A DNA stretch of 64,000 nt from positions 1-64,000 of the forward strand of contig NZ_JOHR01000015.1 in assembly GCF_000719775.1 (NCBI RefSeq), written 5' to 3'. The position numbers and the translations under genes were made by a program. The DNA comes from Streptomyces sp. NRRL F-5135 (GTDB lineage: Bacteria > Actinomycetota > Actinomycetes > Streptomycetales > Streptomycetaceae). Of this stretch, positions 4,058 through 64,000 are shown piece by piece (positions within the stretch are counted from its first letter, which is position 1; each line of letters starts with the position of its first letter). Below the pieces are notes generated by a model that saw nothing but the letters and a program-made list of their open reading frames with translations, had not been told where the DNA came from and searched no databases.

Positions 4058-4132
4058 TGACGCATCGTATGTGCGCCCGTGGAGATGCGCGATGATCGGA
4101 GGAGACCGACCGAGCCGAGGAACGGACGACGC

Positions 4133-5161
4133 ATGAGCCAGCGGAGCAGGACCAGCCCGAGCGGGAGCGCGAGCGCGCTGCATGAGGCGTACGACACGGC
4201 TCTGCTCGACCTCGACGGCGTCGTGTACGCGGGTGGGGAGGCCATCCCGCACGCGGTCGAGTCGCTCCGGGAGGCGCGGGACGCCGGGATGAGACTGGCG
4301 TACGTCACCAACAACGCGCTGCGCACGCCCGACGTCGTCGCGGAACACCTGACGGAACTGGGCGTGCCGGCCGCGCCCGTCGATGTGATCACCTCGGCGC
4401 AGGCGGTGGCCCGGCTGATCGCGGAGTCGGTCCCGCCGGGGTCCCGGGTGCTGGTCATCGGGGGCGAGGGGCTGCGGGTCGCCCTGCGCGAGCGCGGTCT
4501 GGAGCCCGTGGACTCCGCGGACGACGACCCGGCGGCCGTGGTGCAGGGCTACGGCGGCCCGGACATCACCTGGGGGCGGTTCGCCGAGGCGTGCCACGCG
4601 GTCAACCGGGGTGTGCCGTGGTTCGCCTCCAACACGGATCTGACCATTCCGAGCGCGCGGGGGATCGTGCCGGGCAACGGCGCGGCGGTCGAGGTGGTAC
4701 GGATCGCCACCGGCGCCGAGCCGCGGGTCGCGGGCAAGCCGCTGCCCCCGATGCACCGGGAGACGATTCTGCGCACGGGTGCCGAGCGGGCGCTGGTCGT
4801 CGGTGACCGGCTGGACACGGACATCGAGGGCGCGTTCAACGGCGGTGTGGACTCGCTGCTCGTGCTGACCGGCGTGACCGACGCGGCGGCGCTGCTCGCC
4901 GCCGAGCCCCGGCACCGGCCCACGTACGTGGACGAGGACCTGCGCGGTCTGCTGACCGGCCAGCCGGAGGTGACGGAGGCCGGCGGTGGCTTCGCGTGCG
5001 GCGGGTGGACGGCGTCGGCCGCCGGGGGCGCCCTGGTGCTGGACGGGGACGGCCGGGCGCCCGACGGGCTGCGGGCACTGTGCGCGGCGGCCTGGACGGA
5101 GGCGGAGGACGGCGGCTGCGGGCTGGACGCGGGGAAGGCGCTGGCGCGGCTGGGACTGTGA
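4133..5161 (+). CDS. HAD-IIA family hydrolase (NagD/PGP-like phosphatase)
   Basis: The protein has 342 residues. Motif I is LLDLDGVVY with nucleophile and general acid Asp26 and Asp28. Motif II is the YVTNN segment. The type IIA cap follows, and the late motif VVGDRLDTDIEGAFNGG supplies the Mg-binding acidic residues. This order defines the NagD/4-nitrophenylphosphatase/phosphoglycolate phosphatase group of cytoplasmic sugar-phosphate phosphatases. The start MSQRSRT was preferred over an ATG 54 bases upstream because the latter adds only a charged, non-conserved stretch. The last 60 residues, after the family core, are Gly/Ala-rich and less conserved. The physiological substrate cannot be read from sequence. 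Confidence 0.92.
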   Translation: MSQRSRTSPSGSASALHEAYDTALLDLDGVVYAGGEAIPHAVESLREARDAGMRLAYVTNNALRTPDVVAEHLTELGVPAAPVDVITSAQAVARLIAESVPPGSRVLVIGGEGLRVALRERGLEPVDSADDDPAAVVQGYGGPDITWGRFAEACHAVNRGVPWFASNTDLTIPSARGIVPGNGAAVEVVRIATGAEPRVAGKPLPPMHRETILRTGAERALVVGDRLDTDIEGAFNGGVDSLLVLTGVTDAAALLAAEPRHRPTYVDEDLRGLLTGQPEVTEAGGGFACGGWTASAAGGALVLDGDGRAPDGLRALCAAAWTEAEDGGCGLDAGKALARLGL

Positions 5162-5236
5162 GCGGCCCCCGCTCCCACCCGGTCCCTCGTCTCCCGGCGC
5201 GCCCGCGCCCGCCACGCACCGTTCCGGCCCGTGCCC

Positions 5237-6208
5237 CTACGCGTCGTCCCCGACGGCCGTCAGGTGGTCCTCCGAGGCGCCCCGGCGCCAGTAGCCGCTG
5301 AACTTGACCCTTCCCCGGTCGAAGCCGCGGTCCCGGACGAGGTGGCGCCGTACCGCCTTCACCGTGGCCGATTCGCCGGCGACCCACGCGTACGGCGTAC
5401 CGTCCGGCAGGGCCGCGGCGCTGATCGCCGCCGCGGTGGCCGGGAACGGGTGCGCGTGCGGGGTGAGCCATGTGATCTCGGCGTCGGCCTTGGTCGGGAG
5501 GTCCTGGCGGTCGGCCCGGTCGGGGACCTCGACCCAGACGCGGGCGGGGACGCCCGGGGGCAGCGTTTCGAGGATGCCCGCGACGGCGGGGAGCGCGCAG
5601 GCGTCGGCGGCCAGCAGGATCCAGTCGGTGCCGTCCGGCGGCCGGAAGTCGTAGCCCGCGTTCTCCTCGTACACGGGGGCCAGGACACTGATGCGGTCGC
5701 CGGGGCGGGCGGACCTGGCCCAGCGCGAGGCCGGGCCCGACGCGGCGTCGGCGGCGGCCGTCGGAACGGGCGCCGCGTCCTCCCCGCCGGACGGGGCGCC
5801 GGCCAGGGCCGTGCCGCCTCTGTCGCTTCCGAGACCACCGCCGCCCTCGTCGGGTCCGTGCGGCTCGGACGGTCCGTGTGGGGCGGACGGTCCGTGGAGG
5901 GCGAAGTCGATGACCAGTTCGTCGGGATCGCGGCGCAGTTCGCGCGCCGTGAACGTCCGCATGATGCCGCGTACCGCCGGATCCAGCTCGCGGTAGGCGT
6001 CGTACCAGTCGGTCCGGTCCGAGTCCGGCATGACCGGGGCGTCCTGGCCGGGGTGCGGGAAGAACAGCTTCACTCGTTGGTCGCGTCCCGCCGTCGCCAT
6101 ACGCGCCACGTCTTCACCCCCCAGGGTGATCCGGGCCATGGCCGGCGTGACACGCTCCGTGCGGAGCACCTCGACGGAGAAGAACTGGAAGGGGGCGTCA
6201 TTCCTCAT
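5237..6208 (-). CDS. siderophore-interacting protein (FAD/NADPH ferric-siderophore reductase)
   Basis: The 323-residue protein starts MRNDAPFQFFSVEVLRTERVTPAM and has the FAD-binding beta-barrel (VKLFFPHPG, DWYDAYRELDPAVRGIMRTFTAR) followed by the NAD(P)H-binding SIP domain (WILLAADACALPAVAGIL; YAWVAGESATVKAVRRHL). The arrangement is that of the ViuB/SIP family, which releases iron from ferric siderophores by reduction in the cytoplasm. Between the two domains is a roughly 50-residue Gly/Pro/Ser-rich insertion (SAPHGPSEPHGP). The start was chosen at the first conserved Met; in-frame Met residues upstream would run through the iron box. It is divergent from the siderophore ABC ATPase, and the pair is very probably repressed by iron. 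Confidence 0.93.
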   Translation of the reverse strand: MRNDAPFQFFSVEVLRTERVTPAMARITLGGEDVARMATAGRDQRVKLFFPHPGQDAPVMPDSDRTDWYDAYRELDPAVRGIMRTFTARELRRDPDELVIDFALHGPSAPHGPSEPHGPDEGGGGLGSDRGGTALAGAPSGGEDAAPVPTAAADAASGPASRWARSARPGDRISVLAPVYEENAGYDFRPPDGTDWILLAADACALPAVAGILETLPPGVPARVWVEVPDRADRQDLPTKADAEITWLTPHAHPFPATAAAISAAALPDGTPYAWVAGESATVKAVRRHLVRDRGFDRGRVKFSGYWRRGASEDHLTAVGDDA

Positions 6209-6209
6209 G

Positions 6210-6228
6210 CGAGGGTAGGCTAACCTAA
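6210..6228. promoter_or_regulatory. iron box (DmdR1/IdeR/DtxR-type operator)
   Basis: The core TAGGCTAACCTAA matches the right 13 positions of the 19-base actinobacterial iron box TTAGGTTAGGCTAACCTAA; overall 16 of 19 positions agree. It lies in the 55-base gap between the divergent reductase and ABC ATPase starts, just upstream of the reductase ATG, where an Fe(II)-loaded DtxR-family repressor would block both transcripts. Confidence 0.85.
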
Positions 6229-6263
6229 CCTCGCGTCGCTCGACAGTCCCCAGGAGTACGACC

Positions 6264-7163
6264 ATGCAGCGCCTCACCGCGGAATCGGTGACCCTCGGTT
6301 ATGACCAGCGGGTCATCGCCCGCGATCTGTCCGTGGAGATCCCCGACCACTCGTTCACGGTGATCGTCGGTCCCAACGCCTGCGGCAAGTCGACCGTGCT
6401 GCGGGCTCTCTCCCGGATGCTGAAGCCCTCACGGGGGCAGGTCCTGCTGGACGGCGCGGCCATCCACACGATGCCCGCGAAGAAGGTGGCAAGGACCCTC
6501 GGCCTGCTGCCGCAGTCCTCCACGGCGCCCGACGGCATCACGGTCGCCGACCTGGTCGCGCGCGGGCGGTACCCGCACCAGGGGCTCCTGCGCCAGTGGT
6601 CGCCGCTCGACGAGCGGATCGTCGAGGAGTCGATGGCCTCGACCGGGGTGGGCGAGCTCGCAGACCGCCATGTCGACGAACTGTCCGGCGGCCAGCGCCA
6701 GCGCGTGTGGATCGCGATGGCCCTCGCCCAGCAGACACCGCTGCTGCTGCTGGACGAGCCCACCACGTATCTCGACATCCAGCACCAGATCGACGTACTC
6801 GACCTGTGCGCCGAACTGCACGAGACGCGGGGCCGCACACTGGTGGCCGTCCTGCACGACCTCAATCACGCCGCCCGGTACGCGACCCACCTGATCGCCA
6901 TGCGCGACGGCCGTGTCGTCGCCGAGGGCGCGCCGGCGGAGGTCGTGACGGCGGAGCGGGTGGAGGAGGTGTTCGGGCTGCGCTGCCAGGTCATCGACGA
7001 CCCGGAGACGGGCACTCCGCTGGTGGTCCCGGCCGCCCGCCGGGCCCGGCGGGCGGCCTCGGGCGCGGATGCCCCGGCCGGTGGCGGACCCGGGGCGGCC
7101 ACGTACACCGAGCCCACCCCGGCCTCCCTCGCACCGTCGGCCGGCGCCGCGCCGGAGAAATGA
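6264..7163 (+). CDS. FepC-type ferric-siderophore ABC transporter ATPase
   Basis: The 299-residue ATPase has Walker A GPNACGKST (residues 36-44), the signature LSGGQRQR near residue 137 and Walker B LLLLDEPTTYLD near 160, followed by the switch His in VLHDLNHAAR. The TTYLD and QHQIDVLDL features are typical of the iron-siderophore (FepC/FecE/FhuC) subgroup. The ATG follows a CAGGAG site. No permease or lipoprotein gene is adjacent, so this ATPase probably energises permeases encoded elsewhere. The C-terminal 45 residues are a Pro/Ala tail beyond the family core. Regulation by the shared iron box is expected. Confidence 0.93.
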   Translation: MQRLTAESVTLGYDQRVIARDLSVEIPDHSFTVIVGPNACGKSTVLRALSRMLKPSRGQVLLDGAAIHTMPAKKVARTLGLLPQSSTAPDGITVADLVARGRYPHQGLLRQWSPLDERIVEESMASTGVGELADRHVDELSGGQRQRVWIAMALAQQTPLLLLDEPTTYLDIQHQIDVLDLCAELHETRGRTLVAVLHDLNHAARYATHLIAMRDGRVVAEGAPAEVVTAERVEEVFGLRCQVIDDPETGTPLVVPAARRARRAASGADAPAGGGPGAATYTEPTPASLAPSAGAAPEK

Positions 7164-7261
7164 CCTGGACGCCGGCCGCAGCTCCCGCCCCTGGGACCTC
7201 GTCACGAGGCGCCGCCACGAGTGCGCCGTCGGAAGGACGCCGCCACGAGGTGCCGCGCCCG

Positions 7262-7609
7262 TCAGAGCAGCGACTTGAGGCGCACCAGGTCGAGGATCCC
7301 GGCCTCCAGCCGCACCCGGCCCGCGCCCCAGGCGCGGGCGAAGTGCAGTTCGCCGTCCACCATCGCGACCAGGTCGTCACCGGTCATCGCAAGCCGGATC
7401 TGAGCCTTCTCCGGTGGCGGGCCGGCCACGGTGTCCGCCACCTCGATCCGGCCCGCCGTGAGACGGCCCCTGAACGTCACGTCGAGATCAGTGATGTGGC
7501 AGCTGAGGGAACGGTCCAGCCCGGCCGCGGTGCGGACCTTGCCGTCCGCCTGGGCCAGGTTGTCCGAGAGCTTGTCGAGTGCGCTGCGGCACTCCTCCAT
7601 GGTCGCCAT
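7262..7609 (-). CDS. SCP2 sterol-binding-like domain protein
   Basis: The 115-residue protein consists almost entirely of an SCP2-like fold: an N-terminal helix (MEECRSALDKLSDNLAQ), alternating strands (SCHITDLDVTFRG, RIEVADTV, IRLAMTGDDLVAMVDG), and the closing LHFARAWGAGRVRLEAGILDLVRLKSLL typical of the family. SCP2 domains bind lipids or serve as small hydrophobic-ligand carriers. It has no signal peptide or membrane segment and should be cytoplasmic. It is convergent with the ABC ATPase and divergent from the small conserved gene at 7652. Confidence 0.85.
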   Translation of the reverse strand: MATMEECRSALDKLSDNLAQADGKVRTAAGLDRSLSCHITDLDVTFRGRLTAGRIEVADTVAGPPPEKAQIRLAMTGDDLVAMVDGELHFARAWGAGRVRLEAGILDLVRLKSLL

Positions 7610-7651
7610 CGGAGCCGACGGTACCGCACGGCTTCGAGGTAGCGTCTTGGC

Positions 7652-8059
7652 ATGGACGACTCGATGACGGGACCGGCCGGGCGGGCGCCGGGCCGCTCAC
7701 CGGAGGAGGCCCCTGGCCAGGCACCGGCGCAGGCACCCGGCGAACCGGCGCGGGCATCCGGCGAGGAGCCGGGGCGGGGGTCGGGGGCGCCTGGTTCCTC
7801 GGCGTACGAACCGGCGGCGCCCGCGCCGCTCGGTGTGGAGCGTGCCCCGACCGGCCACTCCGAGGTCGACGAGCGGCTGGCCAGGCTGGCAGACGCCGAC
7901 CACCTCCCTGTTCAGGGCCATGCCGAGGTGTACGAGGATGTACATCAGGGGTTGCGCGACGCGCTGACCGCGCTCGACGCACGCCCGGGGCCGCCGGGGC
8001 CGCCGGCACCACCAACACCACCGGTCCCGGGGGCGCCGGGCGCGCGCCGGACCGGCTGA
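7652..8059 (+). CDS. conserved small actinobacterial protein of unknown function
   Basis: The protein has 135 residues. About residues 1-65 and the tail after 110 are Pro/Gly/Ala-rich. The middle part, from PTGHSEVDERLARLADADHL to VYEDVHQGLRDAL, looks like the conserved core and probably forms short helices. The gene precedes tlyA by about 50 bases in the same orientation, as in other Streptomyces, so it is probably in the tlyA-nadK-recN transcription unit. I do not recognise a function. Confidence 0.75.
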   Translation: MDDSMTGPAGRAPGRSPEEAPGQAPAQAPGEPARASGEEPGRGSGAPGSSAYEPAAPAPLGVERAPTGHSEVDERLARLADADHLPVQGHAEVYEDVHQGLRDALTALDARPGPPGPPAPPTPPVPGAPGARRTG

Positions 8060-8108
8060 CGGGCCCCGGTGACCTCTCTCGCGTACGACCACAGGAGCTG
8101 AACCGAAC

Positions 8109-8924
8109 GTGGCTGGACTGGCACGCCGCCGTCTCGATGCCGAGCTGGTACGCCGCAACCTCGCGCGCTCGCGCGAGCACGCGAGCCAGCTGATCGCCGC
8201 GGGCCGGGTGACCGTCGGCGGCGCCACCGCGACCAAGGCCGCCACCCAGGTCGAGACCAGCGCGGCCGTCGTCGTCACCGAGGACGACGCCGACCCCGAC
8301 TACGTCTCGCGCGGCGGGCACAAGCTCGCGGGCGCGCTGGCGGTCTTCACCCCGCTGGGCCTCGGCGTCACCGGCCGGCGGGCGCTCGACGCGGGGGCGT
8401 CCACCGGCGGGTTCACCGATGTGCTGCTGAGGGCAGGGGCCGCGCACGTCGTCGCCGTGGACGTGGGGTACGGCCAACTCGCCTGGTCTTTGCGCAGCGA
8501 TGAACGCGTCACCGTCAAGGACCGTACGAACGTACGTGAGTTGACGCTCGACGCGATCGAAGGTGAGCCAGTGGATCTCATTGTGGGAGATCTGTCGTTC
8601 ATTCCGCTGGGCCTCGTGCTGCCCGCGCTGGCGCGCTGTGCCGCGCCCGACGCCGATCTCTTGCTGATGGTCAAGCCGCAGTTCGAGGTCGGCAAGGAAC
8701 GCCTGGGCAGTGGGGGAGTCGTGCGCAGCCCCGAGCTGCGCGCGGAGGCCGTACGGACCGTGGCGGGACAGGCGGGTGAACTCGGTCTCGGCGTACGAGG
8801 CGTCACCGCCAGTCCGCTGCCCGGTCCCGCCGGGAATGTCGAGTACTTTCTGTGGCTCCGCTCCGGAGCGCCCGAGCTGGATCCGGCCGATGTCGACCGC
8901 GCAGTGGCGGAGGGACCCCGTTGA
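8109..8924 (+). CDS. tlyA: TlyA family rRNA (cytidine-2'-O)-methyltransferase
   Basis: The 271-residue protein starts with an S4 RNA-binding domain (RRRLDAELVRRNLARSREHASQLIAAGRVTV in short segments, residues 5-60) and continues with an FtsJ-like Rossmann methyltransferase (LDAGASTGGFTDVLL near residue 95, the SAM site; DVGYGQLAW; LIVGDLSFIPL; MVKPQFE). TlyA methylates 16S and 23S rRNA cytidines and affects capreomycin sensitivity in mycobacteria. The start is GTG at 8109 with an AGGAG site upstream. Its stop overlaps the presumed TTG start of nadK (TTGA), so the two are translationally coupled. tlyA-nadK-recN is a conserved actinobacterial order. Confidence 0.95.
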   Translation: MAGLARRRLDAELVRRNLARSREHASQLIAAGRVTVGGATATKAATQVETSAAVVVTEDDADPDYVSRGGHKLAGALAVFTPLGLGVTGRRALDAGASTGGFTDVLLRAGAAHVVAVDVGYGQLAWSLRSDERVTVKDRTNVRELTLDAIEGEPVDLIVGDLSFIPLGLVLPALARCAAPDADLLLMVKPQFEVGKERLGSGGVVRSPELRAEAVRTVAGQAGELGLGVRGVTASPLPGPAGNVEYFLWLRSGAPELDPADVDRAVAEGPR

Positions 8925-54904: not shown

Positions 54905-55070
54905 CCGCCGGAACGGACACCGCTGACGGCACCGCTGTCACAGCCGTACGCCTGACGCCCCGCGGAGTCCGCCCGTACCGCGCGCACCACTGGCACCCCC
55001 CGGCCAAATACCGCCCTTGCGCGTCCAGTTGAGGTTCTCAATACTCCCGAGACAGCGCGCCGGTCGGGGC

Positions 55071-55101
55071 GCCGTACCGTCCGGAATCCGGACGGTACGG
55101 C
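55071..55101. repeat. perfect 15-bp inverted repeat upstream of sprB
   Basis: Bases 55071-55085 are the reverse complement of 55087-55101 with a single A at the centre. It sits between the flavin operon and the protease gene, 167 bases after one and 68 before the other. It could be the operon terminator or an operator/leader hairpin of the protease. Confidence 0.8.
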
Positions 55102-55168
55102 CTCGGCCGCGCCTCACGGGCCCCACACCCCACAGCGGGCCCCCGATTCCCCTCGGGAGGAACGAGAA

Positions 55169-56068
55169 GTGAGGATCAAGCGCACCACCCCACGCACGGG
55201 CACGGCCAGACGCACCCGTCTGCTCGCCGTCACCGCGGGACTCGCGGCGGCCGCGGCGATCGCGGTCCCCACCGCGAACGCCGACTCCGCCGGAACGTTC
55301 AGCGAGAGCCGGCTGAGCGCGGCGAGCGACGCCGTGCTGGACGCCGATGTGGCCGGCACCGCCTGGTACATCGACAAGGCGGGCAACGACGTCGTCGTGT
55401 CGGCCGACAGCACCGTCTCCCAGGCCGAGATCGCCAGGATCAAGCAGGCCGCGGGGGCCAACGCGGGTGCCCTGCGGGTCGAGCGCACCCCCGGCAAGCT
55501 CTCCAAGCTCATATCCGGCGGTGACGCCGTCTACACGAGCAGCTGGCGCTGCTCGGCCGGGTTCAACGTGGTCAGCGGCAGCACGTACTACTTCCTGACC
55601 GCCGGCCACTGCACCGAGGGCAACCCCGCCTGGTACACCAGCTCCTCGGGCGGCACGAGCATCGGTCCCACGGCCGGTACCAGCTTCCCCGGCAACGACT
55701 ACGGCATCGTGCGCTACTCGAACACCTCCATCGCCCACCCGGGCACGGTCGGCAGCATCGACATCACGGGCGCGGCCAACGCCAGCGTCGGGATGTCCGT
55801 CACCCGCCGCGGTTCGACCACCGGCACCCACAGCGGCTCCGTGACCGGCCTGAACGCCACGGTCAACTACGGCGGCGGTGACATCGTCTCCGGACTGATC
55901 CGCACCAACGTCTGCGCCGAGCCGGGCGACAGCGGCGGCCCGCTGTACTCCGGCAGCCTGGCCGTCGGACTGACCTCCGGCGGCAGCGGCAACTGCTCCT
56001 CCGGGGGGACGACGTACTTCCAGCCGGTGACCGAGGCGCTGAGTGCCTACGGGGTCAGCATTCTGTGA
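55169..56068 (+). CDS. sprB: streptogrisin B-type secreted serine protease (S1E)
   Basis: The 299-residue preproprotein has a Sec signal ([24 protein letters not shown], residues about 15-38), a propeptide of about 76 residues, and a mature part starting [14 protein letters not shown] at residue 115, giving 185 residues as in streptogrisin B of S. griseus. The catalytic triad is His147 (LTAGHC), Asp177 (GNDYGIV) and Ser255 ([13 protein letters not shown]), with disulfide Cys residues in place. It is a chymotrypsin-like extracellular protease, autoactivated by propeptide cleavage. GTG start with GGAGG upstream. A well-formed terminator follows. Confidence 0.97.
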
Positions 56069-56143
56069 CCGGGCGCCCGTGACCGGCATTCCGTGACCGG
56101 TGTCCGGTGAGCGTCCACCGACCGGTGTTCTCCGGCCGACAGC

Positions 56144-56193
56144 AGGCGAGTCCTCGTCCGATTCCGGGACGGGGGCTCGCCTCCGTCCTTTTC
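56144..56193 (+). terminator. sprB terminator
   Basis: Bases 56144-56159 pair with 56167-56182 (16 bases, two G-U pairs, 7-base loop), followed by CCGTCCTTTTC. The position, 75 bases after the sprB stop, and the T-run indicate an intrinsic terminator. Confidence 0.8.
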
Positions 56194-56254
56194 TGGGAAG
56201 ATGGAGGGACGGTGGGGCCAGCGCGTGTTGCGAGGACCGGGGAGCCGCGGAGCA

Positions 56255-56734
56255 GTGGAACGCATCGGAGTGACCGGCCACAGAAGCATTCCGGCGGAGG
56301 CGTACGCGCACGTCACCGCGGGCATCCAGGACGTGCTGCGCGGTCACACGGGGGCGCTGGAGGCGCTCTCCAGCCTGGCGGTCGGCGCGGACCAGCTGTT
56401 CGCCGCGCTGGCCCTGGACCGGGGCGCCGCCCTGACCGCCGTCATCCCCAGCGGTGACTACGAGAACGACTTCGCGGACCCGGACGAACTGGCCGGCTAC
56501 CGGCGGCTGCGCGACCGGGCGACGCGAAGGGTCCGGATGGCCTTTCCGCACTCCACCGACGAGGCGTACTACGCGGCGGGGACGTACATCGCAGACCACT
56601 GCGACCAGTTGCTCGCGGTGTGGGACGGCCGGCCGGCCCGGGGACTCGGCGGCACCGGGGACATCGTCAGCTACGCGCGGAAGCGCGGGAAGCCGGTCAC
56701 GGTGATCTGGCGCGAGGGCGTCGAGCGCGCGTGA
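56255..56734 (+). CDS. SLOG-domain (DUF1273/DprA-like Rossmann) protein
   Basis: The 159-residue protein begins VERIGVTGHRSIP; GVTGHR after the first strand is typical of the SLOG superfamily (LOG, DprA, YspA relatives). The second half has LSSLAVGADQLFAALALDRGAALTAVIPSGDYENDFAD (by parts), where GADQ and PSGDYEND are the other family motifs, and QLLAVWDGRPARGLGGTGDIVSYARKRGKPVTVIW near the end. SLOG domains bind or process nucleotide derivatives and are frequent sensors in conflict systems. GTG 56255 is chosen; an ATG 54 bases upstream is possible. It converges on a SLATT-like membrane gene 64 bases away. Confidence 0.82.
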   Translation: MERIGVTGHRSIPAEAYAHVTAGIQDVLRGHTGALEALSSLAVGADQLFAALALDRGAALTAVIPSGDYENDFADPDELAGYRRLRDRATRRVRMAFPHSTDEAYYAAGTYIADHCDQLLAVWDGRPARGLGGTGDIVSYARKRGKPVTVIWREGVERA

Positions 56735-56798: not shown

Positions 56799-57797
56799 TC
56801 AGCCCCGGTGCCGTACCAGCCAGTCCGTGTGCTGGGGCGAGACGACGCGCTCGGTCTCGTACACCGCCGCGGCCCACTGCCGCTCGGTGACCGTCGTCTC
56901 CATCGCCGTGTGCATCGCCGCCAGGTCCTCCGCCACCAACGAGTGTGCGGATATGAGGGGTTGGTGCCTGCGGATCTCGCTCCACGCGAGACACGCCGCG
57001 GCCGAGGCCGACAACAGGCCCAGCACGGCGGAGGACTGGGTGAGGGAGAAGCTCCGCGCCACGGCCAGCAGGAGGGCCAGCAGGGTCAGTACGGCGATGG
57101 TGACCGACCAGAGGGTGGTGGCCCGGCGGGAGACGGCCGTTCTGCGGTCGTACCAGTCGCGCTGCTCGATCAGCCGGTCCCTGACGTAGGTCTCCTTGCG
57201 TACGGTGAACGGCTGCTCCCGCAGCGACCGCATGGACTCCGTGACCAGTTCCCCGTCGGCCACGGGATCCGGGCCGTACCCGGTCCCGCCGGCGGCCCCG
57301 CCGTCCCGGCCGTTCCCCTCGCCACGGCCGCCGGGTCGGCCGTCCCGCGGGTCGTCCCAGCCCACCTTCTTCAACTCGGCGAGCCCCGCCTCGAGGCGGG
57401 CGAGGTACAACGCCGTCGCGTCGCCGGCCGCCGAGTCGAAGGGAGCGCCGTGCACCGCGTAGCGCCAGGACATCGACTTGATGAACTCGGCCGCCGAGCG
57501 GTTGAGCTGCCAGTGTGCCCCCGCCCGCCGACGCGCCGAGCGGAACGTGATCAGAAGCACACCGGCGTAGGCCAACGCCGTGAGGGCGCCGACGAGTTGG
57601 AACGAATCGCCCACGCCCGCCCGCCACGGCGACGCCGCGAGCGCGGCGCCGACGACGAGCAGCAGGAGCCGGGTGCGCGTGGAGCCGACCGCCTCGCGCT
57701 GCCGGGCGATGGCGGCGGCGTCGGCGTGGTGGAAGAGAACGGGCAGGTCAGCATTCCGGAAGACCCGGCTGTGCAGCGGTCCGCGTACACCGTCCAT
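56799..57797 (-). CDS. SLATT-like (DUF4231) four-TM membrane protein
   Basis: The 332-residue protein has two pairs of membrane segments: TRLLLLVVGAALAASPW and LVGALTALAYAGVLLITF near residues 42-85, and ATTLWSVTIAVLTLLALLLA and SAVLGLLSASAAACLAWSE near 228-272. Between them lie helical cytoplasmic parts (YLARLEAGLAELKKVGWDDP; RKETYVRDRLIEQRDWYDRR). After the second pair comes RRHQPLISAHSLVAEDLAAMHTAMET. The pattern (paired TMs followed by a helical EQRDWYDRRA-type motif) fits SLATT/DUF4231, predicted pore-forming effectors paired with SLOG or SMODS sensors. It is divergent from fxsA across 202 bases. Confidence 0.8.
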   Translation of the reverse strand: MDGVRGPLHSRVFRNADLPVLFHHADAAAIARQREAVGSTRTRLLLLVVGAALAASPWRAGVGDSFQLVGALTALAYAGVLLITFRSARRRAGAHWQLNRSAAEFIKSMSWRYAVHGAPFDSAAGDATALYLARLEAGLAELKKVGWDDPRDGRPGGRGEGNGRDGGAAGGTGYGPDPVADGELVTESMRSLREQPFTVRKETYVRDRLIEQRDWYDRRTAVSRRATTLWSVTIAVLTLLALLLAVARSFSLTQSSAVLGLLSASAAACLAWSEIRRHQPLISAHSLVAEDLAAMHTAMETTVTERQWAAAVYETERVVSPQHTDWLVRHRG

Positions 57798-57905: not shown

Positions 57906-57933
57906 TTGCCGGGCGAGTTCATGAGAGTAAAGT
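57906..57933 (+). promoter_or_regulatory. candidate fxsA promoter
   Basis: TTGCCG (57906-57911) and TAAAGT (57928-57933) are 16 bases apart, about 65 bases before the fxsA start. A short hairpin GCACCG-CAA-CGGTGC (57944-57958) lies between. By-eye prediction only. Confidence 0.3.
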
Positions 57934-57999
57934 CGTGACGCTGGCACCGCAACGGTGCGGTGTCTCCCCCTCAGGGCAAGATGATCAAGGACGGCCGTC

Positions 58000-58164
58000 G
58001 TGACCACTCACACCTCTGTCGCCTTCGCCACCGCGAAGAAGAACCGTGTCCCCCTCGCAGAGATCGACGTACGCGATTCCGGCGTCGCGAAGAAGCTCAA
58101 CCGTGTGCTGCCCGTGCCCACCGGCCGCGTCGCGCGCGTTTCGAGCTTCAACTCCGCCCTCTAG
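58000..58164 (+). CDS. fxsA: FxsA-type FxSxx-COOH RiPP precursor peptide
   Basis: A small gene of 54 residues is easily missed. It starts GTG with an AAGGA site eight bases upstream. The N-terminal leader contains KKNRVPLAEIDVRDSGVAKK and the end reads TGRVARVSSFNSAL. The final F-N-S-x-x-COOH is the hallmark of FXS precursors: the radical SAM enzyme FxsB is reported to join the Phe ring to the Ser beta-carbon, forming a three-residue cyclophane. It is followed after 9 bases by fxsB. Identification rests on the C-terminal motif plus the adjacent FxsB, FxsC and FxsT homologues. Confidence 0.93.
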   Translation: MTTHTSVAFATAKKNRVPLAEIDVRDSGVAKKLNRVLPVPTGRVARVSSFNSAL

Positions 58165-58173
58165 AATGGCGTG

Positions 58174-60615
58174 ATGACAGGACCACTGGTCCCCTTTCGC
58201 GAGATCGTTCTGAAGGTCCACAGCAGGTGTGATCTTGCGTGTGACCACTGCTACATCTACGAACACGCCGATCAGAGCTGGCGCACCCGCCCCAAGGCGA
58301 TCTCTGACGACGCGATGTCCTGGACGGCTCTGCGACTGGCCGAGCACGCCAAGACCCATGACCTGCCCTCCGTGTCAGTGATCCTGCACGGAGGGGAGCC
58401 CCTGCTGGCGGGCCCCGCCCGGCTGCGCCGGGTGTGCGAGGAACTGACCCGCGCCCTCGCCGGGGTCGCCGCCCTCGATCTGCGGATCCACACCAACGGG
58501 CTCCAGCTCGGCCCCCGCTACCTCGACCTCTTCGCCGAGTACGGCGTCAAGGTCGGCATCTCCCTCGACGGCGACCGGGCCGCCAACGACCGGCACCGCC
58601 GCTTCGCGGACGGCCGCAGCAGCCACCCCCTGGTCCTCAAGGCCGTCGAACTGCTCCGCCAGGACCGCTACCGCGCTCTCGACCTCGGCCTGTTGTGCAC
58701 CATCGACATCGCCAACGACCCGGTCACCGTCTACGACGCGCTCAGCGCGCTCGAACCGCCCCGGATCGACTTCCTGTTGCCGCACGCGACCTGGGACGAC
58801 CCGCCGCCGCGCCCCGAGGGGGCGACCACCGCGTACGCCGACTGGCTGCTCGCCGTCTTCGACCGCTGGGACGCCGACGGCCGGCCCATGCCCGTACGCC
58901 TCTTCGAATCGGTGTTCTCCACCCTGCACGGCGGCCCGAGCCTGACCGAGTCGCTGGGGCTCGTCCCGACCGATCTGATCGTGGTGGAGACGGACGGGAC
59001 ACTGGAGCAGGTCGACTCGCTCAAGAGCGCCTACGAGGGAGCCGCCGCCACCGGTTTCGACGTCTTCTCGCACACCCTGGACGAGGTCGCCGCCCACCCG
59101 GGCGTACGGGCCAGGCAGCTGGGCGTGGCCGGGCTGGGCGAGACCTGCCGGCGGTGTCCGGTCGTGCGCTCCTGCGGCGGCGGGCTCTACACCCACCGCT
59201 ACCGCTCCACGCCGGACACCGGCACGCGCCCCGACCGCTCCGACCACTCCGGCCGCTCCGGGAAGAGTGACCGTTCCGACGCTGACGCGCGCGCGGAGGG
59301 TACGGGAGGACACACCGGAGGCTTCGACAACCCCTCCGTCTACTGCGCCGACCTCGAGGCGCTGATCCGCGGCATCGAGTCCCGTACGGCCGCCGCGTCC
59401 GTGCCCCCCGTCCTCACGGACCCCGGTGAACTGGTCGCGGCCCAGCAGGAGCTGACCCGTTCCCTGCTCGCCGAGCTACACGTGGAGCTCGGCGGCCGGG
59501 GCGGGGCGGAGTGGCAGCAGGCGTGGGAACTGGCGAGCGCCGTCGAAGAGCGCAGCGACGGGCTCGACGCCGTCCTCACCCACCCCTACACCCGGAGCTG
59601 GCTGGTGGACCGCGTGGCCGCCCTGCGCGCCGAGCGGCCCGGGGCCGTCGACGGCGCGCTCGCCCTGTCGGCGTACGTGGCGGCCGCGGTCGTCCGGGGC
59701 GGCCTGGACCTGCCCGTACGGGTCAGAGGCACCGGCGGGGTGCTCCACCTGCCCACCCTCGGCACCCTGCGGATTCCCCGGCCGGACGGGACCGGAGCCT
59801 CGACAGCACACGGAACCGGGGCGGCCGGGGCGGCCGAGGAGTTCGGGACGGTCGGCCCGTTCGGGGAGGGCGGGGCGTTCGAGGCGGAGGTGCGGCCCGT
59901 CGAGGAGGGCTTCCTGGTCCGCACCGCCACCGCGGAGCTGCGGATCGGCCGGCCCGCGGAGGCCACCGAACACTGGCGCCCCGTGCACCGGCTGGGCCTG
60001 CCCGGGGGCCCCGTCCTCGCCCTGGACGACCTCGATCCGTACCGCGACTGCTTCGGCGTCCCCGTCCACCCAGGGCTCCGGCCCGCGGAGACCGCTGCCT
60101 GGGCCGGCCGGCTGACGGCGGCCTGGGAACTGCTGCACCCCGCCCTGCCCGAGCGGGCCGAAGCGGCGGCCGGTGCGCTGTCGACCGTGACACCCCTGCT
60201 CGCCGCCGCGCCCCTGACGGCCCATCAGCCCGTTGCGACCACCGGCGCGCACGGCCTCGGCGCGCTGGGTCTGCCCTTCGCGGCCGGGGTGGCGGAGCTG
60301 GCGCTCGCGCTGCTGCGCGGGCTGCGCCGGGCCCGGCTCCGGGCGCTGACCGAGGTGACCGACCTCTACGCCTACGACGGCGAGTGGCTCAGACCCGCAC
60401 CCTGGCAGGAGGCCCCGGTCCCGCTCTCCGAGCTGCTGGCGGGGGCGTACGAACGGGTGGGGCTCGCCGTCTACGGGGGCCCCACCGCCATGGCGCGCGG
60501 CATCCGGCTGGACCAGGCCCGCCGGGCGCTGGACACCTTGGAGGACGCGCCCGAACTCACCGTCGGCGGGAAGAGCCTGCTGGCAGCTCTACGGAAAGAG
60601 ACCGAACGTGGCTGA
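58174..60615 (+). CDS. fxsB: FxsB radical SAM/SPASM cyclophane maturase, fused to degenerate HEXXH-like domain
   Basis: The 813-residue protein has the radical SAM motif CX3CX2C at Cys19, Cys23 and Cys26 (HSRCDLACDHCYIYEHADQ), VILHGGEPLL, and a SPASM auxiliary cluster region near residues 323-345 (GLGETCRRCPVVRSCGGGLYTHRY). An insert rich in Ser/Asp/Arg follows (RSDHSGRSGKSDRSDAD). The second half (about 400-813) resembles the HEXXH domain seen in FXS clusters: LPVRVRGTGGVLHLPTLGTL, PYRDCFGVPV and LYAYDGEWLRPAPWQEAPVPLSELLAGAYERVGLAVY. At the place of HEXXH it has LLRGLRRARL, so the zinc motif is missing. GTG 58171 is an alternative start. Coupled to fxsA and overlapping the acyltransferase gene. 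Confidence 0.93.
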   Translation: MTGPLVPFREIVLKVHSRCDLACDHCYIYEHADQSWRTRPKAISDDAMSWTALRLAEHAKTHDLPSVSVILHGGEPLLAGPARLRRVCEELTRALAGVAALDLRIHTNGLQLGPRYLDLFAEYGVKVGISLDGDRAANDRHRRFADGRSSHPLVLKAVELLRQDRYRALDLGLLCTIDIANDPVTVYDALSALEPPRIDFLLPHATWDDPPPRPEGATTAYADWLLAVFDRWDADGRPMPVRLFESVFSTLHGGPSLTESLGLVPTDLIVVETDGTLEQVDSLKSAYEGAAATGFDVFSHTLDEVAAHPGVRARQLGVAGLGETCRRCPVVRSCGGGLYTHRYRSTPDTGTRPDRSDHSGRSGKSDRSDADARAEGTGGHTGGFDNPSVYCADLEALIRGIESRTAAASVPPVLTDPGELVAAQQELTRSLLAELHVELGGRGGAEWQQAWELASAVEERSDGLDAVLTHPYTRSWLVDRVAALRAERPGAVDGALALSAYVAAAVVRGGLDLPVRVRGTGGVLHLPTLGTLRIPRPDGTGASTAHGTGAAGAAEEFGTVGPFGEGGAFEAEVRPVEEGFLVRTATAELRIGRPAEATEHWRPVHRLGLPGGPVLALDDLDPYRDCFGVPVHPGLRPAETAAWAGRLTAAWELLHPALPERAEAAAGALSTVTPLLAAAPLTAHQPVATTGAHGLGALGLPFAAGVAELALALLRGLRRARLRALTEVTDLYAYDGEWLRPAPWQEAPVPLSELLAGAYERVGLAVYGGPTAMARGIRLDQARRALDTLEDAPELTVGGKSLLAALRKETERG

Positions 60616-61516
60616 CGACGGGACGGGGACCGGAACCGGAACGGGCGCGGACGCCCCCGCCGTGACCGGCACCGGAACGGTCGCCGGAACCGGGACGGGC
60701 ACCGGAACCCCATCGGGCACGGCCGCCGTGACCGGAACCGCGACCGGGGCGCACACCGATCCACGCCTGGTGGACCAACTCGCGGCCCTGGGCGTCACCG
60801 AGGGCATGACCCTGCTCGTCCACGCCTCCCTCAGCGGTACCGGCCTCGCCCCCGACGTCCTGCGGACCGCCCTCATGACGGCGCTGGGGGAGAGGGGCAC
60901 CCTCGTGGTCCCCGCCTTCACGGAGGAGAACTCCGACTCCTCGCTCGCCCACCGCGCCGCCATCAAGGGCCTGACCCGCCGGGAGGCCGCCGCCTTCCGG
61001 GCCAGGATGCCCGCCTTCGACCCGGCGACCACCCCGTGCCCGCGCATGGGCGTCCTGGCCGAGTCGGTCCGTACCGCCCCCGGCGCCGTACGCAGCGCGC
61101 ACCCGCAGTCCTCCTTCGCGGCACTCGGACACCGGGCGGCGGAGCTGATGGCGGACCACCCGCTGGAGAGCCACCTCGGCGAGGAGTCCCCGCTCGGCAA
61201 GCTGGCCGGATCCGGTGGGCACACACTGCTGATCAACGTGGGGTTCGCCGCCTGCACGGCGTTCCATCTCGCCGAATACCGGATCGGCGCCCCCCTGCGC
61301 TCCTACCACTGTGTGGTCAAAGCGCCGGACAACAGCCCCCGCTGGGTGGAATATGAGGATGTCCGTCTCGACGACAGCGATTTCGAGGCGATCGGTGCCT
61401 CATTCCCCTGGGGTCTGGAGCAGAAGGGACGGCTGGGAGGAACGACCGCGCGATTGTTCTCCGTCAAGGACGCTGTCGACCATGCCGAGGCGTGGATGAC
61501 CGAAAAGCGGCGTTGA
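60608..61516 (+). CDS. AAC(3)-family aminoglycoside-like N-acyltransferase in the fxs operon
   Basis: The 302-residue protein has a 50-residue N terminus of Gly-Thr repeats (GTGTGTGTGADAP), then an antibiotic N-acetyltransferase (AAC(3)) domain: LLVHASLSGTGLAPDVLRTAL, GTLVVPAFTEENSD, the conserved HPQSSFAALG near residue 160, PLESHLGEESPLGKLAGSGG and LLINVGFAACTAFHLAEY. Family members transfer acetyl from acetyl-CoA to an amine. Its 8-base overlap with fxsB argues for a role with the peptide (for example acyl capping or self-protection) rather than plain aminoglycoside resistance; this is inference. The N-terminal repeat region (60617-60750) is made of CCGGAACCGGGAC-like units. Confidence 0.88.
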   Translation: MADDGTGTGTGTGADAPAVTGTGTVAGTGTGTGTPSGTAAVTGTATGAHTDPRLVDQLAALGVTEGMTLLVHASLSGTGLAPDVLRTALMTALGERGTLVVPAFTEENSDSSLAHRAAIKGLTRREAAAFRARMPAFDPATTPCPRMGVLAESVRTAPGAVRSAHPQSSFAALGHRAAELMADHPLESHLGEESPLGKLAGSGGHTLLINVGFAACTAFHLAEYRIGAPLRSYHCVVKAPDNSPRWVEYEDVRLDDSDFEAIGASFPWGLEQKGRLGGTTARLFSVKDAVDHAEAWMTEKRR

Positions 61517-61622
61517 TTGACCGAACCGCATGGGGAGAAAGCGGGCGCGGTTCCGGAATGATGAATTCGCTCACGTCCTCTTCGTTCATGGAAGTGAGTG
61601 TTCGACACAGGACGGGGGTCGT

Positions 61623-62954
61623 GTGCACGCGTCACCGCAGCAGCGGGCTGCTGACCATCGGCCGTACTTCTTTCTCAGTTACGCGCACACACCGAGGGAT
61701 GTCGCCGGGGGACCCGATCCGGACATGTGGGTCGAGCGCCTCTTCCGGGATCTGTCCGGCCATGTGATGGCCATGACCGACCTGCCGGCCGGGGCGCAGG
61801 CCGGATTCATCGACCGGGAGATGCGCTCCGGCGAGGGCTGGTCCGAGCGGCTGGCCGAAGTGCTGGCGACCTGCCGGGTATTCGTACCGCTGTTCTCCCC
61901 ACGGTATTTCGCCAGCGAGATGTGCGGCAAGGAGTGGTACGCCTTCGCCCAGCGCGTCATCTACGAACAGGCCAAGGGCAACAGCACCGCGGACGCGATC
62001 GTCCCGGCCTTATGGGTGCCGGTACCGCCCGCCCAACTGCCGGGGCCGGCCGAGCGGTTGCAGTTCAACCACCGGGACTTCGGCGACCGCTACGTCACCG
62101 ACGGGCTCTACGGGCTGATCAAGCTCCGGATCTTCGCCGAGGAGTACGAGCGCGCGGTCTACGAACTCGCCAAGCGCATCGTCAGCGTCGCGGACACCGC
62201 CGCGATCGGCCCCGGCCGCCCCGTGGACTACCGGCAGGCCCCCAGCGCCTTCGGCACCAGCGGCGGACCGCGCCCCATGCAGGTCACCGTGGCCGCGCCG
62301 ACCCGCCACGACCTGCCGGCGGGCCGCGCGACCCGCTACTACGGCAGCATGGCGCAGGACTGGAACCCCTACCACCCGGAGTCGGTACGCCCCCTGGCCT
62401 ACGTCGCCCGGGATCTCGTACGGTCCCTCAACTACCAGGCCGACATCATCTCCTTCGACGAGGTGCCCATACCGGCCGAGGGGAAGGGGGCGCCCACCCG
62501 GCCGGAGATCCTGCTGGTCGACCGGTGGGCCCTGCACGACGAGGAACAGCGCAGGCGGCTGGCCGCGTTCGACGCCGAACACCGGCCCTGGGTGAGCGTC
62601 GTCGTGCCGTGGAACCGCGACGACCAGCAGAGCCGGGCCGCCGAGGCCGAACTCACCGACCAGCTGGAGCGCACCATGCCCAGGAAGATGGGCCAGGGCC
62701 GGGCCGCCTGCCGGGCCGCCGCCAAGGGCGTGCCCAGCATGGAGGCGTTCGGCCAGATACTGCCCCAGGTCGTCGAGGCGGCGGCCCAGCAGTACCTCAG
62801 ACACGCGGCGGTCTATCCGCCGGCCGGCGGCGGCCGCACCGGGCGGCCCCGGCTGCGCGGGCCGATGGCCGCCGAGTACACGACGACGCACCACCTTCCC
62901 GAGACGCACGACCTGGCGCCCGATGCGGAGGACACGGATGACAGAACGTCGTGA
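61623..62954 (+). CDS. fxsC: FxsC TIR-like domain protein
   Basis: The 443-residue protein starts with a TIR-like fold: RPYFFLSYAHTPRD, WVERLFRDLSGHVMAMT, AGFIDREM, EVLATCRVFVPLFSPRYFASEMCGKEWYAFAQRV and IVPALWVPVPPAQLPG (by parts). The C-terminal part (from about 200) has a second alpha/beta segment (VRPLAYVARDLVRSLNYQADI; EILLVDRWALHDEEQRRRLAAFDAEHRPWVSVVVPW). This matches FxsC of FXS clusters. TIR folds either cleave NAD or act as protein-interaction modules; I cannot verify the catalytic Glu. GTG 61623 is chosen because the conserved block starts 12 residues later; the gap after the acyltransferase is 106 bases. Overlaps fxsT by 17 bases. Confidence 0.9.
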   Translation: MHASPQQRAADHRPYFFLSYAHTPRDVAGGPDPDMWVERLFRDLSGHVMAMTDLPAGAQAGFIDREMRSGEGWSERLAEVLATCRVFVPLFSPRYFASEMCGKEWYAFAQRVIYEQAKGNSTADAIVPALWVPVPPAQLPGPAERLQFNHRDFGDRYVTDGLYGLIKLRIFAEEYERAVYELAKRIVSVADTAAIGPGRPVDYRQAPSAFGTSGGPRPMQVTVAAPTRHDLPAGRATRYYGSMAQDWNPYHPESVRPLAYVARDLVRSLNYQADIISFDEVPIPAEGKGAPTRPEILLVDRWALHDEEQRRRLAAFDAEHRPWVSVVVPWNRDDQQSRAAEAELTDQLERTMPRKMGQGRAACRAAAKGVPSMEAFGQILPQVVEAAAQQYLRHAAVYPPAGGGRTGRPRLRGPMAAEYTTTHHLPETHDLAPDAEDTDDRTS

Positions 62955-64000
62955 CGGACGCATCGTCACCTTCTACTCGTACAAGGGCGGTACCGGCCGC
63001 ACCATGGCCCTGGCCAACACGGCCTGGATCCTGGCCGCCAACGGCAAACGGGTCCTCGCCGTCGACTGGGACCTCGAGGCGCCCGGCCTGCACCGCTTCT
63101 TCCACCCGTTCCTCGACCCGGCCACCCTCGGCGCCACCACCGGTGTCATCGACCTGATCACCGAGTACGCGTGGGCCGCCACCAGCCCCGTCGAGCGCTC
63201 CGACGACTGGCACCGCGACTACGCGCGGATCCAGCCGCACGCCGTCTCCCTCACCCCCGAGACGCTGGGCTGGGAGTTCCCCGCGGGCGGCACCCTCGAC
63301 TTCGTCTCCGCCGGCAAGCAGAACCGCGAGTACTCCGCGACCGTCTCCACGTTCGACTGGGACAACTTCTACGACCGGCTGGGCGGCGGGCACTTCTTCG
63401 ACGCGCTGCGCGACGACATGAAGGCCCACTACGACTACGTCCTGATCGACTCGCGGACCGGCCTGAGCGACATCGCCGACATCTGCACCGTCCACCTGCC
63501 CGACATCCTGGTCGACTGCTTCACACTCAGCGACCAGTCCATCGACGGCGCCGCCGCCGTGGCCCGCCAGATCGACGAACGGTACGGGGGCAGGGGCATC
63601 CGGATCCTGCCCGTACCGATGCGCATCGACGAGGGGGAGAAGGAGAAGGCGGACGCCGGGCGGGCGCTCGCCCGACTGAAGTTCGACCGCTTCCCGGGCG
63701 GGCTCACCGCCGAGGAACTCACCGCGTACTGGGGCGCGGTGGAGATCCCGTACCGCCCCTACTACGCGTACGAGGAGACCCTGGCGACCTTCGGCGACGA
63801 GGCAGGGCTCAGCAACTCCCTCCTCTCCGCCTTCGAGCGGCTGACGACCTACCTCACCGACGGGACCGTCACCGCCATGCCGGCGGTCGGCGAGGAGGCC
63901 AGGCTGCGGATCAGGGACGCCTTCACCCGGCGCAGGCCGGCCATGCCCGCCGACCTCTTCCTCAGCTACGTGGCCGAGAACCGGATGTGGGCCGACTGGA
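62938..64000 (+). CDS. fxsT: FxsT: KGG-type ATPase with TIR domain (partial, runs off the window)
   Basis: The frame is open from ATG 62938 (GGAGG six bases upstream) to the window end, 354 residues. It opens IVTFYSYKGGTGRTMALANTAWILAANGKRVLAVDWDLEAPGL (by parts), a deviant Walker A KGGTGRT ATPase of the ParA/MinD-like KGG group, with YDYVLIDSRTGLSDI and LVDCFTLSDQSIDGAAAVAR. At about residue 335 a TIR domain begins (ADLFLSYVAENRMWADW) and is cut. FXS-system proteins of this kind continue into NB-ARC and TPR repeats, so the protein probably exceeds 1000 residues. Coupled by overlap to fxsC. Confidence 0.9.
   Translation, partial: MTERRDGRIVTFYSYKGGTGRTMALANTAWILAANGKRVLAVDWDLEAPGLHRFFHPFLDPATLGATTGVIDLITEYAWAATSPVERSDDWHRDYARIQPHAVSLTPETLGWEFPAGGTLDFVSAGKQNREYSATVSTFDWDNFYDRLGGGHFFDALRDDMKAHYDYVLIDSRTGLSDIADICTVHLPDILVDCFTLSDQSIDGAAAVARQIDERYGGRGIRILPVPMRIDEGEKEKADAGRALARLKFDRFPGGLTAEELTAYWGAVEIPYRPYYAYEETLATFGDEAGLSNSLLSAFERLTTYLTDGTVTAMPAVGEEARLRIRDAFTRRRPAMPADLFLSYVAENRMWADW

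Follow-up and report, generated by a model that had tools for sequence, protein, structure and literature searches.

The stretch of DNA analysed here, hereafter the window, is positions 1-64000 of the 178952-bp contig C15 (NZ_JOHR01000015.1) in the 8.02-Mb genome of Streptomyces sp. NRRL F-5135 (G000). Towards its end lies an FXS (FxSxx-COOH) operon, fxsA-fxsB-(AAC3-like)-fxsC-fxsT, consisting of five colinear genes, all on the forward strand, for the precursor and maturase of a ribosomally synthesised and post-translationally modified peptide (RiPP), an AAC(3)-like acyltransferase (AAC) and the proteins FxsC and FxsT (Table 1). The fxs operon is linked, as a well supported observation, to the AAC gene, to a pair of genes encoding a SLOG-fold protein and a SLATT membrane protein, and to an alpha/beta-hydrolase gene. 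These surroundings, with their immune-type proteins, a predicted sensor of a nucleotide signal and a predicted membrane-pore protein, suggest a cell-defence circuit over which the peptide, small and probably cross-linked, may have control.

With the starts chosen here the operon has the spacing given in an original prediction made from the letters of the window, namely a gap of 9 bases between fxsA and fxsB, an overlap of 8 between fxsB and the AAC gene, a gap of 106 before fxsC and an overlap of 17 between fxsC and fxsT. That prediction had called the operon nearly complete, but reading of the contig beyond 64000 places the stop of fxsT at contig position 66885, past the window end, and thus the operon is complete; searched with the Fxs profiles, the full FxsT lies well above its family cut-off (Table 1). 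The five genes stand as predicted, although the boundary was drawn too narrowly, as the SLOG-SLATT pair and the downstream hydrolase are also conserved.

Table 1. Features of the fxs locus, in contig positions (bit scores are given with model cut-offs).
Feature	Position	Strand	Basis
S1 proteases with alpha-lytic prodomains, on both flanks	55169-56068; L005:12287-13594		family scan
SLOG-fold protein, 159 aa, convergent with SLATT	56255-56734	+	AlphaFold2 and Foldseek
Tandem SLATT_3 + SLATT_1 membrane protein, divergent from fxsA	56799-57797	-	NF033610 176 vs 45; NF033634 91 vs 41; PF18181, PF18184
Promoter-like element TTGCCG-N16-TAAAGT upstream of fxsA	57906-57933	+	direct reading
Dyad GCAC(C/T)GCAA(C/T)GGTGC in fxsA leader	57944-57958	+	conserved among 115 loci
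fxsA, 54-aa precursor, C-terminus FNSAL-COOH	58000-58164	+	TIGR04268 28.4 vs 28
fxsB(H), FxsB radical SAM/SPASM maturase fused to hydroxylase-like domain	ATG 58174 (GTG 58171)-60615	+	family models
AAC(3)-superfamily N-acyltransferase, ACYLTRANSFERASE	60608-61516	+	PF02522 236 bits
fxsC, TIR-like, 443 aa	GTG 61623-62954	+	TIGR04276 240 vs 55; NF040588 233 vs 130
fxsT, 1320-codon frame	ATG 62938-66885 (in window to 64000)	+	NF040586 1055 vs 300 (full protein)
Gene between fxsT and hydrolase, EGKA repeat	67095-68036 (L005:10096-11037)	-	no family match over cut-off
Alpha/beta-hydrolase, beyond window	68175-69107	-	PF00561

Proteins of the operon and its partners

The gene identities first proposed, a radical SAM/SPASM maturase, an AAC(3)-family acyltransferase, a TIR-like FxsC and a KGG/TIR FxsT, are upheld by family models, and the four fxs proteins all score above their NCBIfam cut-offs, FxsA barely. 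An open reading frame with an FxSxx or FxSxxx C-terminus lies upstream in 116 of the 124 FxsB genes that have at least 250 bp of upstream sequence (a set that holds some species twice), and the pairing of fxsA with fxsB is therefore not due to chance. The constancy of these ends also suggests, at the level of sequence, that the C-terminus of FxsA is recognised. Upstream of fxsA, GAGTAAAGT is present in 76 of 115 loci and the promoter-like arrangement TTGC-N16-TAAAGT is kept in many; the dyad GCACYGCAAYGGTGC is likewise conserved in many loci, with GCAACGGTG in 32/115 and GCAATGGTG in 31/115 as its forms. The element and dyad together (57906-57958) may act as an operator or fold into a hairpin in the RNA.

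FxsB falls among the FXS maturases, its residues 9-347 matching TIGR04269 with 576 bits (cut-off 370). The original prediction had recognised the maturase without mentioning its C-terminal beta-hydroxylase-like domain, which is covered by NF040587 (radical SAM/SPASM FxsBH, with an inactivated beta-hydroxylase extension; 398 bits, cut-off 225). The motif HExxH is absent from FxsB residues 401-814 (no search was made for a zincin encoded separately in the rest of the genome). It is kept in four of the 43 FxsB proteins of at least 650 aa (L042, L062, L064 and L088), as HEFQH or HEYQH, all four in operons that lack SLATT (Fisher p 0.008, genus set, uncorrected) and with FxsA partners ending FQSSV or FQSSL. 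The same genome also encodes a second FxsB (TIGR04269, 418 bits) in L096 (G000:C18:73000-91000; ~2750-8651 of the locus, - strand), accompanied by an FxSxx_TPR protein (NF040586, 863 bits) and an upstream frame that ends MLWGFNNAF.

The AAC matches five of the NCBIfam models for AAC(3) and falls short of the cut-off in each (best NF033082, 147 against 270 bits). Its polar residues E152, H165, H220 and E223 are invariant in 46/46 aligned AACs, and its best solved relative is FrbF (3sma), which we take to be an acyltransferase of antibiotic biosynthesis. By eye, there is no clear difference between FxsA cores with and without an AAC in the operon.

The fxsC frame is open back to 61530, and the chosen 443-aa product matches the length of several close homologs. 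The glutamate of the SxxCGxEW motif in its TIR domain, presumably the catalytic residue, is retained in 58 of 60 aligned rows, whereas the equivalent position in the TIR of FxsT is Val, Leu or Ile in 46 of 54 and Glu in one (both alignments include one locus twice, as L095/L120). FxsT contains, besides this degenerate TIR (TIR_2), a KGG-variant ATPase domain (NF047398), NB-ARC and TPR_12/TPR_10.

The SLOG-fold protein has no Pfam or NCBIfam match, and its relatives are named 'hypothetical', 'DUF1273' or 'DNA recombination-mediator' in public records. Its AlphaFold2 model, built from 41 aligned sequences, has a predicted local distance difference test score (pLDDT) of 94.9 and a predicted template modelling score (pTM) of 0.90, and in Foldseek it matches YpsA (2nx2, E 5.3e-8), DprA, ShosA, LOG proteins and the SLOG domain of ThsA bound to 3' cyclic ADP-ribose (3'cADPR; E 1.6e-3). 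On the strength of these model matches we identify it as a SLOG protein.

Conservation of the linkage

Two surveys, one starting from FxsC and the other from SLATT, bear on the linkage. Among 121 genomes of the window's genus, FxsC_Nterm was matched above cut-off in 44, with 60 matches at 58 distinct loci; 57 of these were used, as stretches of 12-20 kb searched by tblastn with the window proteins (L119, cut by contig ends, was left out, and L120, a longer stretch of the contig that holds L095, was used in place of the latter). FxsB, FxsC and FxsT occur together in 47 of the 57, and these complete operons are accompanied by SLATT in 32 cases, SLOG in 31 and AAC in 29, with six having neither SLATT nor AAC. 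SLOG is missing from one SLATT-bearing stretch, L077, where it lies ~11 kb away.

At the level of whole genomes, strong SLATT homologs (at least 39% identity) are found in 34 of the 121 and strong SLOG homologs (at least 52%, the next full-length matches being at most 43%) in the same 34, all of which are FxsC-positive (34/44 vs 0/77; Fisher p 1.9e-21, uncorrected for ancestry). Weak SLATT matches in G022, G064, G077, G086 and G118 (28-40% per segment) were set aside, their best scores being 60-78 bits against at least 128 in the 34 counted. All but one of the 34 SLATTs adjoin fxs genes; in the exception, G057, the SLOG-SLATT pair is next to the S1b protease, where other genomes hold an intervening fxs operon. 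The hydrolase (at least 53%) is present in 46/121 genomes, comprising 40/44 with FxsC and 6/77 of the remainder (Fisher p 5.5e-21, uncorrected), and in G022 is on a different contig from FxsC. Over all sets, some species being counted twice, it is found in the fetched stretch of 109/126 complete operons, a number from which stretches that end early hide some. It is mostly convergent with fxsT and within ~200 bases of it, the distance being 1.3 kb in the window and 9-14 kb in the inverted clade described below.

The SLATT-first survey used a profile of 14 SLATTs over GTDB genomes, which found 171 coding loci; the best 80 of the 171 were used, all titled Streptomyces or uncultured Streptomyces, with 9/80 SLATTs identical to ones in the genus set. 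SLOG is adjacent in 80/80, FxsB is present in 78/80 and FxsB, FxsC and FxsT are together in 68/80. The 12 loci without the full set comprise six whose contig stops close to the operon and six that are decayed: fxsC and fxsT have been lost from L143 and L184, where fxsA and an fxsB of full length remain, L174 retains fxsA with an fxsB that is shortened, a fragment each of fxsB and fxsT is left in L153, and L149 and L167 match only SLOG, SLATT and AAC, with the hydrolase persisting in L149 and L153. Four of the six have thus lost FxsC together with most or all of FxsT but retain fxsB, which is truncated in two of them, and the reverse is seen in 0/80. In genome G005, a hydrolase piece (61%, one stop) lies beside a SLOG piece (66%, 62 residues) at G005:C1:1256238-1257437, which is probably another decayed locus, since there is no FxsC over the cut-off in that genome.

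The position of SLATT relative to fxs varies. In an inverted clade (L044, L051, L061, L063, L068, L071-L073, L197 and L202) SLATT is downstream of fxsT on the strand of fxsB, and in L207 the order is C-T-B-AAC-SLATT, again with SLATT on the fxsB strand. A tree of 59 FxsB rows requires seven changes of the SLATT label, six of them forced by supported branches, with the caveats that several of these branches are long, that a change may represent a loss and that the SLATT of row L219 is the weak one from genus g211; in a deep branch, L091, L205 and L207 have SLOG-SLATT and their near neighbours have none. Given this inverted clade, the at least six changes on the tree, the order in L207 and loci where no S1 protease was found (see below), we conclude from sequence comparison that the linkage of SLATT to fxs is not one frozen synteny. 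Counting against this, a weaker SLATT is found in 41 genomes of genus g211, and of eight fetched loci seven have fxs genes and one, L214, has none, with no SLOG match in any of the eight.

An AAC is found in 41/41 genomes with a complete operon, whether inside it, beside it or elsewhere: in line with the operon in 28, on the opposite strand just downstream in G057 and outside in 12. The 12/12 genomes whose SLATT-type operon lacks an AAC have one outside at 48-54% identity (in G070 beside a second fxs operon), and a second AAC at 47% or more is found in 0/28 genomes with an operon AAC (Fisher p 1.8e-10, uncorrected), in a genome-wide search that scored 19 candidates per genome. We considered these outside AACs as independent copies acting in trans and dropped the idea, for their setting, with yigZ beside the AAC in 11 of 12 fetched loci (G029 included) and an xre gene too in eight, is the site of the entire fxs operon in L062 and L064, where it lies between the same xre gene and the yigZ-linked AAC. 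The yigZ-linked AAC therefore marks a second FXS site; G029 is the sole genome with an AAC of this type and no FxsC match. In a tree of 46 AACs, 26 operon AACs cluster (95/71, not a starred branch), L120 is placed, with branch support, beside an AAC type that is ordinary on chromosomes, L094 has a different, weakly supported position and L062 and L064 group with second-site AACs. By this tree an AAC joined FXS loci at least twice, and probably more often.

FxsC itself is found in other settings, 10 of the 57 FxsC loci having no complete fxs set. In seven of nine listed incomplete loci it is embedded in a protein of 869-1566 aa, and in all five of these seven that were scanned (L043, L047, L079, L083 and L093) it forms the C-terminal part of a large protein encoded directly behind an AAA_5 ATPase gene, an arrangement that agrees with the MoxR-vWA systems of Kaur et al. 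(2020; PMC7159879). FxsC-like matches occur in 5/72556 plasmid records, two covering at least 80% of the query, and in one plasmid the annotation places a MoxR ATPase next to it. In a phylum-wide search, FxsC_Cterm matched in 4/296 genomes, three over the cut-off and all three in the window's genus. The long-protein forms behind AAA_5/MoxR ATPases lead us to infer that FxsC is a portable, exchangeable effector.

Other neighbours

The S1 proteases were set aside as neighbours rather than partners, as none was found in some SLATT-bearing loci. S1a is present in 72/80 SLATT-first loci, and there is no S1 match in 7 of the 34 SLATT-bearing genus loci (L060, L070, L074, L076-L078 and L091) nor in 9/12 of loci L202-L213, where short stretches may hide some. 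The gene with the EGKA repeat was dropped as a partner, being seen in no other locus searched. An antisense frame at 54938-56599 ('U552') seemed conserved, but merely mirrors the S1 protease and SLOG genes encoded opposite it.

A possible mechanism and its alternatives

We put forward, tentatively and with less than even confidence, that the locus is a peptide-regulated STAND/TIR conflict system in which a signal from FxsC is read by SLOG-SLATT. Here FxsB would link Phe to Ser within the C-terminal FNSAL of FxsA, and the strictly placed FxsA C-terminus would be the ligand of FxsT, a predicted STAND ATPase that probably binds it through the TPRs and has a degenerate TIR of its own. FxsT would hold or release FxsC, the TIR of FxsC would cleave NAD+, and the SLOG protein would read an ADP-ribose-type product and gate the SLATT membrane protein, stopping or killing the cell. 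The AAC and hydrolase may set the level or state of the peptide, and we lean slightly towards the peptide as an inhibitor rather than a trigger. Linkage is what is observed; the order of the signalling cascade is what we infer. A more explicit version, in which FXS is an immune circuit with a cross-linked ribosomal peptide as input, FxsT as a STAND receptor set by the cyclophane at the peptide's C-terminus, an NAD-derived messenger made by an active TIR in FxsC, a SLOG reader that opens a tandem SLATT pore, and an acyltransferase and hydrolase that tune the peptide, is rather doubtful.

The evidence counted in favour of a peptide-regulated conflict system is the likeness of the SLOG model to the ThsA SLOG:3'cADPR structure, the glutamate retained in FxsC and mostly replaced in FxsT, the family identities, the linkage with its repeated SLATT changes on the FxsB tree, the portable forms of FxsC, the direction of decay, and the roles shown or predicted for SLATT in DRT10 defence (PMC12632851) and as an ADPr-regulated membrane effector (PMC9503650). 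Several observations weigh against it. Of the 47 complete genus operons, 15 have no SLATT, and hence SLATT is not required by FXS as such; by eye, in the 10 of these 15 that were examined, no common replacement (membrane) effector is seen. SLOG-SLATT occurs without fxsABCT in L113, L149, L167 and L206, the eight fetched g211 SLATT loci have no SLOG match, and FxsC and FxsT occur without FxsB in stretches L075, L080 and L086, so that the peptide is not always needed. The structure model of FxsC is poor in its TIR half, with no match in the PDB at E<=1e-3 and a first TIR match, 3ozi, at E 0.06; a fold claim for FxsC from this model was dropped as too weak. In FxsT, PADLOC matches the KGG domain alone (PDC-M28B, 83 bits); it also has a weak match of FxsB to radical SAM proteins of the viperin type and leaves FxsC, AAC and SLATT unmatched. 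A search against PHROGs gave nothing decisive.

Possible, but somewhat unlikely, is a guard or antidote arrangement in which modified FxsA, acylated or not, is a constitutive inhibitor of FxsT/FxsC, and its loss, for example in host shutdown by phage, unleashes the TIR in the manner of a toxin-antitoxin pair. This would fit with fxsA being the first gene, behind a conserved promoter-like element, and with the direction of decay, in which L143, L184, L174 and L153 lost FxsC and all or most of FxsT and kept fxsB whole or in part, although such events are only a handful and the three stretches with FxsC and FxsT but no FxsB run counter to it. It may also be consistent with the keeping of an AAC in each genome, where the 12 outside copies and the absence of second copies in the 28 are complementary, but that pattern is confounded by ancestry, its candidates were partly scored and G029 has an AAC without FxsC.

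An exported RiPP, acting as antibiotic or signal, with the AAC and hydrolase in tailoring or self-immunity and TIR/STAND/SLATT sensing the cell's own or a rival's product, is unlikely. It draws on the FrbF relationship of the AAC, with its presumed role in antibiotic biosynthesis, and on the secreted-type S1 proteases that flank the locus, but these proteases were not found in the loci listed above, and by eye (no systematic search was made) there is no transporter gene in the operon or its conserved neighbours. Kaur et al. (2020; PMC7159879) do allow for a 'peptide toxin or signal'. Finally, it is very unlikely that SLOG-SLATT, AAC and hydrolase have stayed next to fxs as bystanders because Streptomyces chromosomes rearrange slowly: the query and the 80 SLATT-first loci are closely related, S1a is nearly as constant and orphan SLOG-SLATT exists, but SLATT changes sides in the inverted clade, takes yet another order in L207 and recurs in the deep FxsB branches of L091, L205 and L207, two of them with other gene orders, an AAC was recruited at least twice and the set persists where no S1 protease is found.

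To our knowledge no read-out of FXS peptides is known, the named components being the precursor, the maturase and the TIR/STAND genes. The partners described here offer one, in that many FXS operons are accompanied by genes for SLOG, predicted to sense a messenger, and for SLATT, predicted to be the effector at the membrane, and the question of why TIR and STAND proteins accompany a RiPP becomes directly testable. If the peptide-regulated conflict system is correct, a post-translationally cross-linked peptide would be an internal regulator of a TIR immune pathway.

Comparison with known systems

The FXS core is of a known kind, for which NCBIfam models exist, and its partner set is undescribed within the literature searched. 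The original prediction had singled the system out as poorly described, and in Kaur, Burroughs, Iyer and Aravind (2020, eLife; PMC7159879) the core is in fact already covered, with FxSxx peptides, a radical SAM-SPASM maturase and a TIR-AP-ATPase-TPR protein, a predicted peptide toxin or signal, and a stand-alone form whose MinD/ParA-like domain is inactive; the description holds for the partners alone. The likeness extends to the precursor, the maturase, the TIR/AP-ATPase/TPR protein and the stand-alone form. However, the core described there has a zincin-like peptidase, where here the domain is fused to FxsB and lacks HExxH, a motif whose enzymes, according to PMC12636437, hydroxylate and cleave RiPP backbones. 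Section 24 does not name AAC, SLATT, SLOG or an alpha/beta-hydrolase with the FxSxx system; the same text mentions SLATT in connection with GTPase-centred systems, and alpha/beta-hydrolases with both these and the MoxR-vWA systems. Among the matches listed in our literature search, which mostly leaves subscription papers uncovered, no other paper treats FXS or pairs it with SLATT, SLOG or AAC.

The AAC shares its fold family and conserved His and Glu residues with the AAC(3)/FrbF acyltransferases (PF02522; 3sma), but groups with other AACs of FXS operons. A SLATT membrane protein as presumed effector is common to the TIR-SLATT pairs of firmicute phages, for which PMC9503650 predicts an ADPr-regulated membrane effector, and to DRT10 (RT-SLATT, where RT is a reverse transcriptase), in which SLATT is needed for phage defence (PMC12632851). 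Their inputs differ, being a phage TIR in the one and a reverse transcriptase with a non-coding RNA in the other, with no RiPP in either.

A parallel in signalling is Thoeris (TIR ThsB with SLOG-bearing ThsA; PMC11204291), where an NAD-derived cyclic signal is read by a SLOG domain. The SIR2-SLOG (or macro) architecture of ThsA is absent here, the SLOG fold standing alone at 159 aa with no SIR2 or macro match in the linked proteins scanned. Unlike Thoeris, SLOG is thus a free protein facing a SLATT gene rather than fused to SIR2, and the set further includes a STAND ATPase, a RiPP and two TIR proteins; if the immune-circuit version described above is correct, RiPP maturation would be joined to Thoeris-like nucleotide signalling in a single system.

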